DNA of 64,000 nucleotides, taken from contig OMRP01000006.1 in NCBI GenBank assembly GCA_900313615.1, positions 32,796-96,795 on the forward strand, read 5' to 3'. Within the stretch, counting starts at the first letter, position 1. Each line of letters begins with the position of its first letter. The stretch is from an uncultured Prevotellaceae bacterium (GTDB lineage: Bacteria > Bacteroidota > Bacteroidia > Bacteroidales > Bacteroidaceae). This document shows, in pieces, positions 4,476 through 64,000 of the stretch. The notes below the pieces were generated by a model that was not told the DNA's origin, searched no databases, and worked only from the letters and a program-made list of their open reading frames with translations. The translations under genes and the position numbers were made by a program.

Positions 4476-4722
4476 TGATGTTTTTTCGATTATAATTGCT
4501 CTCCTTACCAAGTGTTCTATTTTCTTGACATGCAAAGATACACATTTTTCTGCAAGTGGTGTTGCCCAAAGAAAAATAATACGTGAAACTTGCCGTTATC
4601 GGCAAAAATTGCTATTTCTGCCACGTAATAGGCTGTAAAACTAGTATTGATATGGTACATGACATTTGCTATGGTAATTATCGCGGTCTCACAGGCAATA
4701 TATTAATAATATTGTGGTAAAA

Positions 4723-4754
4723 TTGCGGAAATTCGTTCTTTTTCATTATTTTTG
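4723..4754 (+). promoter_or_regulatory. Candidate Bacteroidota promoter upstream of the DUF1893 gene
   Basis: TTG at 4723-4725, then 21 bases, then TATTTTTG at 4747-4754, matching TTTG-N19/21-TAnnTTTG. Transcription would begin near 4760. The 309-base gap between the GH2 start and this gene otherwise shows only AT-rich sequence. Confidence 0.5.
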
Positions 4755-4793
4755 CAAGCAGATGAATTTTCCCGCTCGTTCCGCATGGGCGTA

Positions 4794-5228
4794 ATGATGA
4801 CGATGCAACAGTTGATAGACATATTACACCAAAAGGAGTGCTCGCTTGTAGTCAAGGCGAATACAGGTGAGACGACGACCTATAACAAAAAAGGCGTGCG
4901 TGACTTGATATGGCTGTTGGACCATGAGCCACAACGGCTGAGCTGCGCGGTCATTGCCGACAAGGTGATAGGCAAGGCGGCGGCAGGACTGATTGTGAAA
5001 GGTGGTGTGGCCGAAGTGTATGCCAACGTGATGAGTCGGTTGGCCCTTCCGCTACTCGACGAAGCGGGAATTCCATACAGTTATGGCGAGTTGGTGGAAC
5101 GTATCGTGATACCCGAGGGTGATAATCGTTGTCCACTTGAACGTATCGTGGCCGATGCCAAGACTGCGGAAGGGGTGGAAACACTTCTTCGACAGCATTT
5201 CCAAGAAATGGAGAACAAACAAATATGA
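4794..5228 (+). CDS. DUF1893 domain protein
   Basis: About 144 aa; several in-frame ATGs (4752, 4785, 4794, 4797, 4803) exist and 4794 is chosen because the family begins close to MQQLIDILHQKECSLVV. The protein shows the DUF1893 hallmarks: CSLVVKANTGE, a GVRDL helix, CAVIADKVIGKAAAGLIVKGG, and a late CPLERIV cysteine. The family is small, cytosolic and of unknown biochemical role. It lies 11 bases upstream of an ECF S-component-like membrane protein, so the pair is probably one operon; from memory DUF1893 genes often sit beside such transporters, but this could not be checked here. Confidence 0.8.
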   Translation: MMTMQQLIDILHQKECSLVVKANTGETTTYNKKGVRDLIWLLDHEPQRLSCAVIADKVIGKAAAGLIVKGGVAEVYANVMSRLALPLLDEAGIPYSYGELVERIVIPEGDNRCPLERIVADAKTAEGVETLLRQHFQEMENKQI

Positions 5229-5239
5229 ACTAATACGAA

Positions 5240-5770
5240 ATGATTATGAATGCATCAACAGCTAATCTTTACACACTGAGTTGTCGCGAGAGCCGCAGTT
5301 ATCTCTTTGCGGCGTTGTTCATTATTGGCAACATCCTGTTGCCACAACTGTGCCACCTTGTGCCACAGGGTGGACTGACACTGCTACCCATTTATTTCTT
5401 CACGCTCGTCGGAGCTTATAAGTATGGATGGCAAGTGGGATTGATGACGGCAATACTTTCTCCATTGGCCAACTCGGTCCTTTTTGGTATGCCTGCAGCC
5501 GCCGTGCTCCCCGGCATCATGGTGAAGTCGGTGTTGTTGGCCTTGAGTGCCGCGTTCATCGCTCGCCGATACCAGTCCATCAGCATTCCTTTGATGGTGG
5601 CAGTGGTGTTGAGTTATCAAGTTGTCGGCTCCCTCATCGAGTCCGCCATGCTTGGCTCCCTCGCACTTGGTTTCCAGGATTTCCGGATCGGCATCCCTGG
5701 TATGTTGCTTCAAGTGGTGGGCGGCTATCTCGTCCTCAAGGGCATGAGTTGGAAGCGTTCGGCAAAGTGA
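5240..5770 (+). CDS. ECF transporter S-component-like membrane protein
   Basis: A 176-residue integral membrane protein with five to six hydrophobic segments (about 24-44, 48-75, 77-95, 100-122, 128-150, 150-172) and no ATPase or periplasmic domain. Size, topology and the LLPIYFFTLVGAYKYGWQVGL / SPLANSVLFGMPAAAVLPGI motifs are typical of the substrate-capturing S component of energy-coupling-factor vitamin transporters. The ligand cannot be read from the sequence. No EcfA or EcfT gene is in the window, so it would share a distant energising module. Start 5240 (MIMN) or 5246 (MN) are both possible. It follows the DUF1893 gene closely and precedes the GtrA/regulator gene by 85 bases. Confidence 0.7.
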   Translation: MIMNASTANLYTLSCRESRSYLFAALFIIGNILLPQLCHLVPQGGLTLLPIYFFTLVGAYKYGWQVGLMTAILSPLANSVLFGMPAAAVLPGIMVKSVLLALSAAFIARRYQSISIPLMVAVVLSYQVVGSLIESAMLGSLALGFQDFRIGIPGMLLQVVGGYLVLKGMSWKRSAK

Positions 5771-56833: not shown

Positions 56834-59800
56834 TCAGTCCAGCAACACAAAAGCGGCCCAGAACTCAGGATGGTCGAAGCGGCCATTGTCGATGGAGCGA
56901 AGATAGCGCTGTGCCCCTCGGAAAGCCTCGCGCTTAGACTGTCCTTCAAGCAGGTGGTTGTAAAATGTGGTCATAAGAATTTGTGTGGCTTCATCAGCCA
57001 CTTCCCACAGGCTCATCACGATGGTCTGCACGCCGGCTTTCTTGAAGCCGCGCTGTAGGCCGAAGACGCCTTCTCCCTGACGGATGTCGCCCCGTCCCGT
57101 CTTGCAGGCGGAGAGCACAACAAGGTCTATTCCGCGCAGGTCGAGTCGAGATATTTCTTGGGCCGTGAGAATGCCGTCATCGGCATCCATGGGCATGTCC
57201 TGTCCTTGTAGAGCCTTGTTGGCGCCGGCAAAGAGCAGTCCGCTTCGTGCCAATGCTTTGTCTTCACCGCTGCTCCGCTGTCGCTCGTCGTGTGCGAGGA
57301 ACCATAGTTGTTGCTGCTGAGCCGCCTGTTGGGGAGTAAAGTAGAAACCGTGTGTAGCCATGTGGAGGATGTGGGGCACATGGCCGCTCATCGCCTTGAC
57401 GGATGTTTCTGTGGCGTCGCTGCCGGTATGCAGTATTGAAGAGAGATGTCTTCCGTCGAACGACCGCTTGATTTCTTCCACTTCTGTCAGCGTGGCGGGC
57501 AGGTATTTCGAGGTGAGGCCGCGCACAGCCATGCTGTCTATCAAACTACGGTGGAGGTCAATGGATACCTCGAGAGCCTCCTCGGAAGTCTCCCCCATCC
57601 CCTCCGAAGGAGGGGTGCCGCTGCTGACAGGAGATGCGTTGTAATCCACGCCACCATACAATACAGCCCCTTTTTCCCTCCCTTGTAAGGAGCCAGAGAA
57701 AGTCTTTTGCTCCCTCCCCTTGGGAGGGTTGGGGTGGGTGTCGTGGTCGCCCATTATCTCCCTCGTTGATGAGAGCCTATACATCTCATATTCCTCCATG
57801 CCCTCCGCATATTCGATGCCGATGTTGTGCAGCGCCCCGGCTGGCGAGAAATAGATTTTCCGGATGCCTTTCAGCTCCTGTTGCAAAGGTTGCCACACCA
57901 GTTGGGTGAGTTCGGGACAGTGGTAATACACGGGGTCGCTCACCCTTTGCAGTTGTCGTTGCTCGAACAATGGGATGAATTTCGGTTCCTTGTCGTCGCG
58001 ACGCAGGGTGAGTGCCGCTATCATGGTGCTGTCGGTGCCGTAGACTTGGAACGCGAGAAATTCCACGGCTATCTCATCGTTCTTCAGCATTTGTTGCACA
58101 TCTTTCCACGTGGTGCGTAGTTTGCCCGTGAAGTCGCCATAGGCTTTCGACCGTTTCGTTAACTCTCGTTCCTGACGTGCGGTAACGCGAGCCAACGAGT
58201 CGGCGTTCATGGGGCGGTTGGCGATGGGCATAGCATAGAGTTGTTGCAGTTGCATGCGGTTGGCTTGCAACTCTTCGAACATACGCAGTGCCTCTTGGTC
58301 GCCGCTCTCGCGTATCAGTCGATTCATTTCTATCTCGGTGCTTAGGAGCAGCCCCTTGGCAAAGAGACACGACTTGTCGTAGAGGTCAGGACTGGTGGTG
58401 GCGTGTGAGCGCAACACATAGGTGGGGAAGACATTGGTGAAGTCGTTGGACATTTGGTTCCAGAACGTGGCACGTTGTTTGGCGGTCAGTCCGGTGAATT
58501 GTTGAAGCACGTTGTCATAACTGATGCTGATGCTCTGCCTGAAGAAGTCCAGGCTCTCGTCGTAATGGCCCAGTATGGCATGATAGCCTGCTAGGTTGCT
58601 CAGGGCAGTGGCGTAGTTGGGATGGTGCTCTCCCAAACTTGTGCGACTGGTCATCATGGCTCGTGTTCCAGTCTCCTTGGCTCGTTCGTATTCGCCATGA
58701 CGGAAGAGGAGCGAGGCGAGGTTGTTTAGCGAGAGGGCATAGTCGGGGTGTGTGGCACCGAGCACTGCCTTGCGTATCTCAGCGGCCTTCACACAGTGTT
58801 CCACAGCTTTGTCGGTATTGCCGAGAGCCGAATAATAGTTAGACAGGTTGCTCAGGCATGCAGCATAGTCAGTATTCATGCCATTGGCATCCCGCTGCCA
58901 GATGGCGAGGGCTTGTTCACCATATTCCGCGGCTTTGGCATTGTCGCCAAGGGCGGAGTAATAATGTGATAGGTTGTTCAACGACTGGGCACATAACGGG
59001 TGGTTCTGTCCCAAAGCCGTCTGTCGAATAGTCAGGGCGCGTGTGCCCAGGTCGATGGCGCGTCGTTGATTACCCAACTGCGAGGAGTTGTTGGCTAGGT
59101 CGCTTAGTACGGTGGCGTAGTCGGGATGGGCGGTGCCCACAGTGTTGCGTAGGATTTTCATCGACTGCATGCACAGATCCACGGCCTTGCTGTAGTCACC
59201 GAGTGATGAATAATAGTTGGCTAGGTGGTCGAGGGTCATGGCATAACTGGCATCGTCGGCCTGTCCTGTCGAGAGCAACTGCTCTTGGGCCATCATCCCA
59301 TATTCCAATGCTTTCGTGGCGTCGCCGAGTTGCGAGCAATAGACGGCCAGGTTGTTCAGCGATGTGACATACGCCTCGCCGTTATCTCCTTGTGTGGTCT
59401 TGAACACCTGCATGGCTGTGGTCTCCATCCTCACCGCCTCGCTGTAGTTGCCTTTTTCCGACAGATACCGTGCCAGGTTGCTCAGCGATTGTGCATATTT
59501 GGGGTGTTGCTCTCCCACAGCCGCTTTATAAGCATCCGTGGCGGCACGGCCACAGTCCAGCGCTTTGGTGATGTCGCCGAGGTGAGAATAATACACTGAT
59601 AGGTTCTGCATCGAGGTGGCAAACTCCTCGTCGGCCTTACCATATAGGGACAGTGTGACGGCAGCCTCTTTCTCGCCCCATTCCACGGCCTTGAGATAGT
59701 TGCCAGTGTTGTAATAGCAGCGGGCCAACTTGAAGAGGACAAGGGCGTAAGTGTCGTCGTTCTCAGAATAGTTTTTCGCGTAGCCTTCACGGTATTGTTC

Positions 59801-59950
59801 ATAGTAGGTGATGGCCTCACTATATTGCTTGTTGTCTTCAGCCTCTTGTGCCCGCTGGCTCCATTCGTTCATCTGGGCCACAGTCTGGGCTGTCGCCACC
59901 ATCATGGAGGCAACCGTAAATAAGATGAGGAGAACGTACCGTCTTTTCAT
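56834..59950 (-). CDS. Secreted TPR-CHAT protein (caspase-fold peptidase-like)
   Basis: 1,038 aa. Start 59950 gives the signal peptide RRYVLLILFTVASMMVATAQ; the frame reaches 60013 but the extra residues cross the promoter. About fifteen TPR units of 42 residues (pattern YATALSNLAGYHAILGHYDE) fill residues 25-540, then a helical linker, then a CHAT domain (about 690-1038) with the caspase-like dyad H867 in HMATHGFYF and C949 in VVLSACKTGRG. CHAT domains cleave protein partners in several systems; a secreted TPR-CHAT is common in Bacteroidota but its target is unknown. Residues about 737-800 carry Pro/Gly-rich stretches (THPNPPKGREQ, SGTPPSEGMGET) encoded by palindromic repeats. Confidence 0.88.
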   Translation of the reverse strand: MKRRYVLLILFTVASMMVATAQTVAQMNEWSQRAQEAEDNKQYSEAITYYEQYREGYAKNYSENDDTYALVLFKLARCYYNTGNYLKAVEWGEKEAAVTLSLYGKADEEFATSMQNLSVYYSHLGDITKALDCGRAATDAYKAAVGEQHPKYAQSLSNLARYLSEKGNYSEAVRMETTAMQVFKTTQGDNGEAYVTSLNNLAVYCSQLGDATKALEYGMMAQEQLLSTGQADDASYAMTLDHLANYYSSLGDYSKAVDLCMQSMKILRNTVGTAHPDYATVLSDLANNSSQLGNQRRAIDLGTRALTIRQTALGQNHPLCAQSLNNLSHYYSALGDNAKAAEYGEQALAIWQRDANGMNTDYAACLSNLSNYYSALGNTDKAVEHCVKAAEIRKAVLGATHPDYALSLNNLASLLFRHGEYERAKETGTRAMMTSRTSLGEHHPNYATALSNLAGYHAILGHYDESLDFFRQSISISYDNVLQQFTGLTAKQRATFWNQMSNDFTNVFPTYVLRSHATTSPDLYDKSCLFAKGLLLSTEIEMNRLIRESGDQEALRMFEELQANRMQLQQLYAMPIANRPMNADSLARVTARQERELTKRSKAYGDFTGKLRTTWKDVQQMLKNDEIAVEFLAFQVYGTDSTMIAALTLRRDDKEPKFIPLFEQRQLQRVSDPVYYHCPELTQLVWQPLQQELKGIRKIYFSPAGALHNIGIEYAEGMEEYEMYRLSSTREIMGDHDTHPNPPKGREQKTFSGSLQGREKGAVLYGGVDYNASPVSSGTPPSEGMGETSEEALEVSIDLHRSLIDSMAVRGLTSKYLPATLTEVEEIKRSFDGRHLSSILHTGSDATETSVKAMSGHVPHILHMATHGFYFTPQQAAQQQQLWFLAHDERQRSSGEDKALARSGLLFAGANKALQGQDMPMDADDGILTAQEISRLDLRGIDLVVLSACKTGRGDIRQGEGVFGLQRGFKKAGVQTIVMSLWEVADEATQILMTTFYNHLLEGQSKREAFRGAQRYLRSIDNGRFDHPEFWAAFVLLD
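57594..57742. repeat. Three palindromic repeat copies inside the CHAT gene
   Basis: Copies at 57594-57618 (CCCCTCCGAAGGAGGGG), 57670-57695 (CCCTCCCTTGTAAGGAG) and 57709-57742 (CTCCCTCCCCTTGGGAGGGT then TGGGGTGGGT). All are in frame and lie between the linker and the catalytic part of the CHAT domain. Confidence 0.8.
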
Positions 59951-59970
59951 GGCGCGAAGGGTTGGTTTTG

Positions 59971-60001
59971 CAAATATATCATTTTTATTGACATTCACCA
60001 A
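59971..60001 (-). promoter_or_regulatory. Candidate promoter of the CHAT gene
   Basis: Minus strand TTG (60001-59999), 20 bases, TATATTTG (59978-59971), 21 bases before the chosen start. Confidence 0.55.
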
Positions 60002-60036
60002 GCATTTTGCCATTTTTCATTCACCTAATGCCCTTA

Positions 60037-61462: not shown

Positions 61463-61690
61463 TCAGAATAACGAAAGCTGTGTGTCTAATGTTCTTTGAA
61501 CATTGATGCACGTCTTTTTTGGGAAACAACAATATGCGGCCAACGCTCCGAGCATGTTAACGACGAAGTTCTCAAAGCATCTGTGCCTGGAGTGCTCCAC
61601 CTGCGCGATGTTCTTCAGCTCGTCATTGACGGTCTCGATGATGGCCCTCTTCCTGAGCAGCAGTTTGTCAGAGACGCTCCCACTCATATC
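61463..61690 (-). mobile_element. IS982-family transposase 3-prime remnant
   Basis: The last 75 residues ([55 protein letters not shown]) match the C-terminus of IS982-type DDE transposases, including the conserved E of the catalytic triad in IIETVND. No start or inverted-repeat pair is present, so it is an inactive fragment fused in frame to the RHS tip. Confidence 0.85.
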
Positions 61691-61879
61691 ACATCCAAAT
61701 AATGAAGAGCCATCTATATAATTTGAATTATTAATAGAAGACCAATCATGGAAGAAATTTTGTGCAGCCACATCAAAACCTGTTCCCCAATAGCTTTTGC
61801 CGGATTGACTACTTCCTATTAGACGTCCAATAAGTCCGCTTGCCCAATACCCATTTACGAACAATATCTTCTTTCCATC

Positions 61880-62130
61880 TGGATCTACCGCATTCACTGG
61901 ATCTCCTCCACAGTACGCATACGGACTCACGCTGTAGTACTTCTCGCAGAGCGGATCCATCCTGTCCCAACGTGCGGTGACGGGGTTGTACTGCCTCGCG
62001 CCGTAGTCGTAGGTGTTCAGACCGTGCATCTTGTCCAGCTCCTTTCCGTTGTACCTTCGCGACTGTTTGTCGCTGTCCGTCCTGCCGTCACAGAACTGCG
62101 TGCCGGAGGGATAGTAGTTCATCTTCTGCG
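61880..62130 (-). repeat. RHS core direct repeat, copy 1
   Basis: Nearly identical in DNA and protein to 63750-63995 (for example GGGTTGTACTGCCTCGCGCC and GTAGTCGTAGGTGTTCAGAC occur in both). Such repeats allow recombinational swapping of RHS tips. Confidence 0.9.
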
Positions 62131-62524
62131 CGACGGTTCCCTTGTCGGTGCCGTTGGCAATGATGACCTGACGTACGCTGCCGAGATGGTCACGGTCGTA
62201 GTAGTAGAAGACGAACCTGTCCTTGGCGGGGTTGGAGGGAACCTCTAATGCCTGGCAGTAGCCCTCGTCGAACTGGTACTTGTCAATGCGTCCGTTCTTC
62301 ATCGTGAGCGTGCCGCCGAGCAGGTAGTCCGTGGAATCCGCGGCCAGGATCTCCGACGGTGCCAGTTCCCTCGTGCTGCCTATGGGGACGGTGATGTTCG
62401 ACACCGCCGTCAGGTAGGTATGTATCTTATTCACAATCATTTCTTTCTGTAGATATAACTCTTGCTGGAGACGACGTTCCCGTCATGGTCGATATTTCAA
62501 CTATCATGCTCCCCTAATACAAAT

Positions 62525-63058
62525 CTAAAAAACAAAGATATCAGTATTCATATATAAATAAGAAAGGTTTTTTCTTATTTTTTTACGGATTTTTCTCTCA
62601 TGTCTCATAGATTTAGTTGAGGAACTCCATTCAAATACGACCTCATTGTTCTTGTCAAAAATAGCAAAATAAGAACAGAATGGACCATAAACACGGTCAT
62701 CCCATCTTTTATTATCACTCATATCTAAATCTAATATAGAATAAATACGGTTTAGTTTTTCTATTATTTTGTTGAAATGATATGATTTATATCTTGTTAA
62801 GTCGCTACTTCGGTAATATATTACTGTCTCATGTCGTTTTTCTACAACAATTGCCCAATAAAATCCAAACATATATGCATAGTAAGAACATCCTTGAAGA
62901 CTATCGGACAAATTCTCCTCGTCAATAATATTCATTAAACTTATATGACAACTCTGATATTCTCTTAACAACAGAGAGTCAATTTCTTCAGCCTTTAAAC
63001 TTAAAAGGCTAACTTGGAATAATAAAATCAATACCACATATATTCTTTTCATAGTCAT
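62525..63058 (-). CDS. Candidate immunity protein for the RHS tip
   Basis: 177 aa, no family recognised. It begins with a signal-like segment (IYVVLILLFQVSLLSLKAEE) and continues as a mixed alpha/beta protein rich in Tyr, Lys and Ser. Its ATG overlaps the RHS stop (ATGA; alternative start MKR at 63052), the arrangement of toxin-immunity pairs. The DNA is clearly richer in A+T than the RHS core on either side, which suggests acquisition with the tip. If the signal is real it would protect in the periplasm, so the toxin would act there or on entry. Confidence 0.6.
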   Translation of the reverse strand: MTMKRIYVVLILLFQVSLLSLKAEEIDSLLLREYQSCHISLMNIIDEENLSDSLQGCSYYAYMFGFYWAIVVEKRHETVIYYRSSDLTRYKSYHFNKIIEKLNRIYSILDLDMSDNKRWDDRVYGPFCSYFAIFDKNNEVVFEWSSSTKSMRHERKIRKKIRKNLSYLYMNTDIFVF

Positions 63059-63999
63059 CTAAAGTCTGGTAACATAGAAGGGTCTTTAATCACAGTGCCA
63101 GGACCATGATTGCTTCCATCATTAATGTAATTTATACCCATTACTCGTAGTATTAAATTTTCAGTTCGAACAGCATCGACATGTTGCCTTTCCTTTCCTC
63201 TCCCAGAAGCAAGAGAGCGACCATGTCCTATAATTTCATGACCTGTGGTGACGGCTATTCCGTTTGGGTGTAGACGTGTTTCATTAACAATAACAGAATG
63301 AGTCCCTTTTTCTGTTTGTACAGTTAACCCGCCACCCCCAAAAGCGGATATTATTTTTGTCGGAATTCCACCATTTTTTTTAACAATTGTGCTAACAGGT
63401 AGTCCTGCTTTTGCCAATTCTGAGGAGAAAGCCTCTTTTCCCACATTTGAAATTACTTTATTATTATCAGCATACTCAATCATATGTATGTCAGACGAAT
63501 TGATAGTATTAACAACCATATCTACCAGTGCTTTCTGGTCTTCTGATAAATTAATTCCATCAAAGGCAATATTTAATGCCTCTTTACTGATATGCGCCAA
63601 TGTCTCTTTGTCGTGATTCTTTCCTGACTGTTGGATTAATTCCCTAAAATTATCAAAAACATCACCTACAAACATTTCACGGATATTCTTCACAGCCATT
63701 GAAGCATCTTTTTGAGTAACCCCTTGTATTACGCATCCGTCAGGATCAACGGCATTCATCGGATTCCCCCCACAGTACGCATACGGACTGATACCGTAGT
63801 ATTTCTCGCACAGCGGGTCCATCTTGTCCCAGCGTGCGGTGACGGGGTTGTACTGCCTCGCGCCGTAGTCGTAGGTGTTCAGACCGTGCATCTTGTCGTA
63901 CTCCTTGCCGTTGTACCTTTGCGGCTGCACGTCGCTGTCCGTGACGTTGTTGCAGAACTGCAGGCCGGAGGGATAGTAGTTCATCTTCTGCACAATGGT
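63055..63999 (-). CDS. RHS/YD-repeat protein, 3-prime end, with putative metallopeptidase-like toxin tip (5-prime partial)
   Basis: The frame is open to the window edge, so the body of the RHS protein lies outside. Residues numbered from the codon at 63993: core to the hallmark NPMNAVDPDG at 77-86, then a 226-residue variable tip that is A+T-rich. The tip contains TTGHEIIGHGRSLASG (H252, E253, H257) followed by VRTENLILR (E278). The HE...H pattern with a later glutamate resembles zinc metallopeptidase toxins, but the spacing is HExxxH, not the classical HExxH, so catalytic activity is a hypothesis. The stop overlaps the next gene. RHS proteins deliver such tips to competing cells, often by type VI or other secretion; no secretion genes are in the window. 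Confidence 0.8.
   Translation of the reverse strand, partial: TIVQKMNYYPSGLQFCNNVTDSDVQPQRYNGKEYDKMHGLNTYDYGARQYNPVTARWDKMDPLCEKYYGISPYAYCGGNPMNAVDPDGCVIQGVTQKDASMAVKNIREMFVGDVFDNFRELIQQSGKNHDKETLAHISKEALNIAFDGINLSEDQKALVDMVVNTINSSDIHMIEYADNNKVISNVGKEAFSSELAKAGLPVSTIVKKNGGIPTKIISAFGGGGLTVQTEKGTHSVIVNETRLHPNGIAVTTGHEIIGHGRSLASGRGKERQHVDAVRTENLILRVMGINYINDGSNHGPGTVIKDPSMLPDFR
63750..63995 (-). repeat. RHS core direct repeat, copy 2
   Basis: Matches 61880-62130. The two copies flank the tip and immunity gene at 62525-63740. Confidence 0.9.
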
Positions 64000-64000
64000 T

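Follow-up and report, generated by a model that had tools for sequence, protein, structure and literature searches.

The window analysed here, 64,000 nucleotides from an uncultured Prevotellaceae bacterium, ends in an RHS locus with a variable tip and an overlapping small gene, and it raises the question of whether these two genes form a toxin-immunity pair. An earlier note on this DNA had proposed a metallopeptidase-type toxin and a periplasmic immunity protein. We put the probability at about 0.6 that the locus carries an RHS-end cassette encoding a zincin toxin that would act in the envelope of prey cells, together with an exported immunity protein, in the manner of VgrG2b and PA0261.

Anatomy of the locus

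All features of the locus are on the minus strand. The tip ORF (63055-63999) runs off the window edge, which is also the end of the contig (C21:96795) and lies inside an RHS core. We identified the core end (63736-63999, continuing past the contig end) with TIGR03696 at residues 21-88 of the ORF (E 1.5e-16), directly before the variable tip. The tip domain (63055-63744), taken from the ORF list and matched by eight relatives, comprises 229 amino acids and the stop codon. The stop overlaps by 4 nt (ATGA) the gene for a 177-aa putative exported immunity protein (62525-63058), and behind this gene is a second RHS core end (61874-62440; TIGR03696, E 1.3e-16). The two core ends share 85% identity over 265 nt; they are indeed matching copies, although "near-identical", as they were first called, is slightly too strong. 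Identity between the copies drops to chance level at ~63740, the boundary between core and tip. The proposal of a tip-swapping locus is supported. The GC content of the tip is 37.6% and that of the 177-aa gene 28.5%, versus 56.2 and 57.3% in the two cores, and we count this contrast between AT-rich module and GC-rich cores in favor of a cassette.

The downstream ORF (61463-62440) consists of the second core end, a short tip remnant of ~65 aa (61680-61873; GC 37.1%) and, in frame with these, the end of an IS982 transposase (61463-61680). The transposase was recognized above cut-off by PF13612 (E 7.9e-12) and below cut-off by NF033520 (E 9.5e-12; 45 bits, cut-off of 130). The short tip matches no family in Pfam or NCBIfam, and no candidate partner gene was seen behind it in the ORF list. 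This displaced module is a wreck, in keeping with its earlier description as an older copy. An RHS end with tip swapping and a wrecked module behind it is a well-known kind of locus. The likeness extends to the conserved core end, the AT-rich variable tip, the adjacent partner and the displaced module; the locus differs solely in that the families of its tip and partner are unnamed. A 1059-aa ORF near the RHS locus, on the same strand (56834-60013), looks by eye to contain tetratricopeptide-like repeats and to end in a CHAT-like peptidase.

Relatives and distribution of the tip domain

The tip and partner families lack names in the libraries searched, as had been supposed from their letters. 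Neither Pfam nor NCBIfam matched the window tip above cut-off. A search of PDB sequences with the tip returned nothing at E up to 1, and the tip profile gave two irrelevant matches there (E 0.97 and 3.6). Weak library matches of the tip or partner (Band_7_1, 0.014; Ribosomal_S15, 0.12; phrog_10173, 0.079; Avs4, 0.044; and others) were dropped as being under cut-off or near chance. An AlphaFold model of the tip, built from the window and L007 sequences, reached a pLDDT of 33.4 and gave no confident structure.

The tip family comprises nine sequences: that of the window and those at loci L007, L016, L017, L018, L019, L020, L021 and L024 (the last first met as L023). Identities of the eight relatives to the window tip are 61.5% (L007), 58.6% (L017), 43.1, 34.9, 30.7, 28.9, 27.0 and 25.3%. 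The L021 match is limited to model positions 1-82 (E 3.9e-5). The L007 locus, one of 30 matched stretches, was found by exact peptide patterns in genome contigs.

The tip domain is rare. It was found in 1 of 299 genomes of the same genus (the genome of the window itself), in 2 of 395 of the class, 6 of 393 of the order and 2 of 247 of the phylum (own genome included in each), and in 1 of 60 relatives of G410 (the center, G410, itself). Because these samples overlap and the query profile was enlarged from search to search, the rates are not comparable with one another. There were no relatives in phages, plasmids or viral contigs.

The HExxGH motif

The window tip contains H252-E253-I-I-G-H257 (63223-63240), followed by E278. 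The HExxxH spacing that had been noted is real, and is specifically HExxGH. In the alignment of nine sequences, H252, E253 and G256 are kept throughout and H257 in eight; the exception, L021, has HEVVGE and no second histidine. Retention of HExxGH in eight of nine homologues, across identities of 61.5% to 25.3%, indicates conservation beyond chance. N279, L280 and H296 are invariant. The residue at position 278 is E in five sequences, D in one, S in two and T in one. Thus, all of the residues originally pointed out are present, but E278 was rejected as the third metal ligand on grounds of conservation. Judged from the alignment, N279 and H296 (63106-63159) would fit this role better, and are the candidate third ligands.

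An extra residue between the two histidines of the motif is unusual, yet precedents in M49 peptidases and in polyvalent proteins show that it is not unique. The usual M12B motif is HExxHxxGxxH. In a survey of type VI secretion systems, HExxGHxxGxxH is given for the M12B motif in candidate effectors (PMC10469887); this may be a misprint. HEXXGH has been called unique to M49, in which HEXXH has also been shown to replace it, and HEXXXH zincins are reported in polyvalent proteins of phages (PMC5805324; PMC5512222). We found no example of an RHS-borne HEXXGH or HEXXXH peptidase or toxin in the portions of the open-access literature covered.

The window hexapeptide, HEIIGH, is like the HEXXGH zinc hexapeptide of M49 (dipeptidyl peptidase III), but the tip has 229 aa compared with ~550 or more, lacks a motif of the EECKAD type and stands in a secreted-toxin context (PMC5805324). 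The nine tips share no conserved Glu pair after the motif. PF03571, the M49 model, scored 11.3 bits against L024 (cut-off 21), a mere hint. Membership in M49 was rejected on size and the second motif. The HEXXXH zincins of phage polyvalent proteins are similar in having an extra residue between the histidines and in belonging to conflict proteins, but their carriers are phages and conjugative elements, and the likeness is one of description only (PMC5512222).

Comparison with the M91 peptidases

The strongest competing explanation places the tip in a known toxin family, M91/HopH1 (Tox-HopH1), as a diverged peptidase whose motif is one residue longer. We consider this a serious contender, at somewhat below even odds. 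RHS-borne zincins, Tox-HopH1 among them, are listed in a survey of polymorphic toxins, in which this family is described by "HExxH, [DE]N" (PMC3482391). Both groups have zincin or putative zincin tips carried by RHS proteins, with an HE motif. At the place of [DE]N, the window tip has EN, and N is present in all nine tips, preceded by E or D in six. Five M91 matches were identified in 149 genomes of the class. Four have HExxH, and the fifth, L031, a Pfam M91 match over cut-off, has HExxGH like the window: HELLGHG...VDAVNIEN, as compared with HEIIGHG...VDAVRTEN. An hhalign comparison of the tip with M91 gave 72% over 51 columns, and L016 matched PF14891 weakly (E 0.048; 14.4 bits against a cut-off of 25, the best score of any tip relative).

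Several results argue for a greater distance. PF14891 did not detect the window tip even with E allowed up to 1. The five-sequence M91 profile scored the window tip at 2.0 bits, below its best shuffle (9.5 bits), and the tip profile scored L031 at 15.2 bits, where the best of 2100 shuffles reached 12.8; similarity between the profiles is therefore close to shuffle level. The HExxH pentapeptide occurs in none of the tips, and in three of the nine the acidic first residue of [DE]N is missing. At L031, a minus-strand frame of 342 aa was seen to read without a stop from the HELLGHG M91 tip into an apparent lipoprotein partner.

We also propose, very tentatively, that the nine tips form a separate clade of zincin toxins. 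Its members would be distinguished by HExxGH, by N279 or H296 as third ligand in place of the usual Glu, by RHS and type VI TssD carriers, and by several unrelated families of envelope immunity proteins.

Carriers of the tip

In the window and in seven of the eight relatives, the domain comes directly after an Rhs core end, although among those seven only that of L018 passes the model cut-off. In the remaining relative, L019, a TssD (Hcp) protein (PF17642, E 7.6e-15) has the domain at its C-terminus, and its gene has a further TssD gene and a TssC gene as neighbors. In G1147 the domain ends an RHS protein of 2587 aa. The module in G1047 is placed directly behind a 2139-aa RHS protein that has a different tip and its own adjacent gene, which is the kind of arrangement the earlier note had envisaged.

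It is possible, though we think it the less probable case, that the window module is an orphan lacking a complete RHS gene, in which case it would be silent or expressed only after recombination. The contig ends within the core, and the assembly, which is 81.6% complete, yielded no RHS_repeat match, so the carrier upstream of the window core is absent from the data. Moreover, related modules at L017/L025 and at L030 are placed behind other RHS modules. The frame of the window core is, however, open up to the contig end. Four Rhs cores were identified in this assembly (G000): the two in the window and one each at the starts of contigs C13 and C22. The end of C21 and the start of C13 agree in every one of the first 80 bases compared, as expected if the assembly broke inside a longer shared core. 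The window tip, called the current one in the earlier note, is presumably still joined to a full RHS body.

Other tips were observed at these and related loci. At the C13 start (L013, 1-1184), an RHS core end carries a tip of another kind and is followed by a gene for a small hydrophobic protein. A further core end, at the C22 start (L014, 2-619), is truncated by the start of the contig and bears a tip that differs again. Before the L017 module is a full-length RHS protein (L025, 1585-8004) whose tip includes a HELTEAY stretch and is perhaps another metal-peptidase-like toxin. By eye, six RHS core-end modules follow one another at L030 (250-11116); their tips differ, most have their own small gene, and together they appear to be an array of orphan tip modules. 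One of these (4690-5607) matches cell-wall hydrolase models. Related genes that look transglutaminase-like by eye (L007, 146-1234; L026, 5743-7149 and 3086-4135; L034) have no Pfam match where scanned and are located just upstream of short RHS-end tips, and at L034 a similar stretch is seemingly fused to the tip. Such a gene and its short RHS-end tip are possibly a compact type of carrier.

The partner gene

Homologues of the 177-aa protein adjoin the tip in two other genomes (L007 and L017), in the same place, directly after the tip, as expected from the proposed pairing. The window and L007 partners match with a pairwise E of 1e-7, and a profile of the L007 and L017 partners matched the window protein at 4.4e-9 (best of 2000 shuffles, 0.12). 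We refer to these three partners as family A. The partners at L016 and L024 share a second family, B, and those at L018, L019, L020 and L021 have no convincing match to any other partner. The genes adjacent to the tip in six of the eight relatives are thus not detectable homologues of the 177-aa protein. An attempt to link families A and B failed. The neighbor at L020, a 575-aa protein 67 nt away, is the poorest immunity candidate.

The 177-aa gene was not seen to be widespread apart from the tip in the genomes searched. It was found in only its own genome among 299 of the genus. In the order, the partner profile matched 2 of 144 genomes, the own genome and, weakly, G791 (8.4e-4); the G791 match was rejected, as that gene is ExbD-type by eye. 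When nine genomes with such a tip or with the M91 tip of L031 (the genome of L007 left out) were searched with the family-A profile, matches were convincing in G000 and G1047, and we discounted two others, in G000:C18 (E 0.26) and G410:C66 (E 0.33). No name for the window partner came from Pfam, NCBIfam, PHROGs or PADLOC, and Pfam gave none to the six other partners scanned. Two weak matches to PDB sequences were obtained for the window partner (best 0.074), and its AlphaFold model, with a pLDDT of 47.1, gave no confident structure.

The signal-like start first seen in the 177-aa protein is reflected in its hydrophobic N-terminus, and at all nine loci the tip has a neighboring gene on the same strand whose product is hydrophobic near its N-terminus. 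The best 10-residue mean hydrophobicity in the first ~40 residues is 2.16 to 3.25, a proxy for export that was scored without a control set and for which some starts are the longest possible. By this measure the partners may be exported. At L007, a small ORF with a signal-like start (1249-1545) overlaps the tip ORF (1499-2287) in another frame, and at L018 a similar start is in the same frame as the tip.

Envelope-type partners would equally suit a target in the cell wall. The tip could be a metal enzyme other than a protease, for example a cell-wall hydrolase neutralized in the envelope, and the type VI survey assigned a putative activity of this type to its HExxGHxxGxxH effectors (PMC10469887). 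We regard this as unlikely, given that HE...H with later conserved residues is a peptidase-like pattern and that VgrG2b, the nearest functional precedent, is described in a heading as lacking peptidoglycan hydrolase activity (PMC6899460). It is similarly improbable that the 177-aa protein is a chaperone or unrelated cargo: partners do vary among the tip relatives, but the L007 and L017 homologues keep the same place behind the tip, with identities to the window protein (26.1 and 23.5%) far under those of their tips (61.5 and 58.6%), and low identity among immunity orthologues has been noted (PMC6899460).

Proposed function and significance

The preferred reading, a zincin toxin with an exported immunity protein, has its closest functional parallel in the Tpe-Tpi pairs (VgrG2b C-terminal domain/PA0261 and ACIAD0053/0054). 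VgrG2b is a periplasmic metallopeptidase toxin and PA0261 its periplasmic immunity protein (PMC6899460). In these pairs, as is proposed for the window, the toxin is a metallopeptidase on a delivery protein, and the immunity proteins are located in the envelope, there by a signal peptide, lipoprotein or membrane anchor (PMC6899460). The Tpe-Tpi motif is HExxH, in contrast to HExxGH, and the carrier is VgrG instead of RHS or TssD. Searches of PDB sequences revealed no sequence link between Tpe-Tpi and the tip. The zincin reading itself is weakened by the absence of any significant profile match of the tip to known peptidase families.

The RHS carrier would deliver the tip to a competitor. There, the tip would be active in the periplasm as a zincin-like metallopeptidase, with the HExxGH hexapeptide as its probable zinc motif. 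In the periplasm of the producer, the exported 177-aa protein would bind and block the tip. Recombination in the conserved core end may swap such cassettes and leave older modules downstream, one of which was presumably ruined by an IS982 element.

If this is correct, the competition arsenal of the Bacteroidia would gain an unnamed metallopeptidase toxin that acts in the envelope, together with its immunity protein, and a single toxin domain would be common to RHS and type VI carriers. The family would also make a natural test case for whether small zincins can function when their two histidines are one residue further apart.
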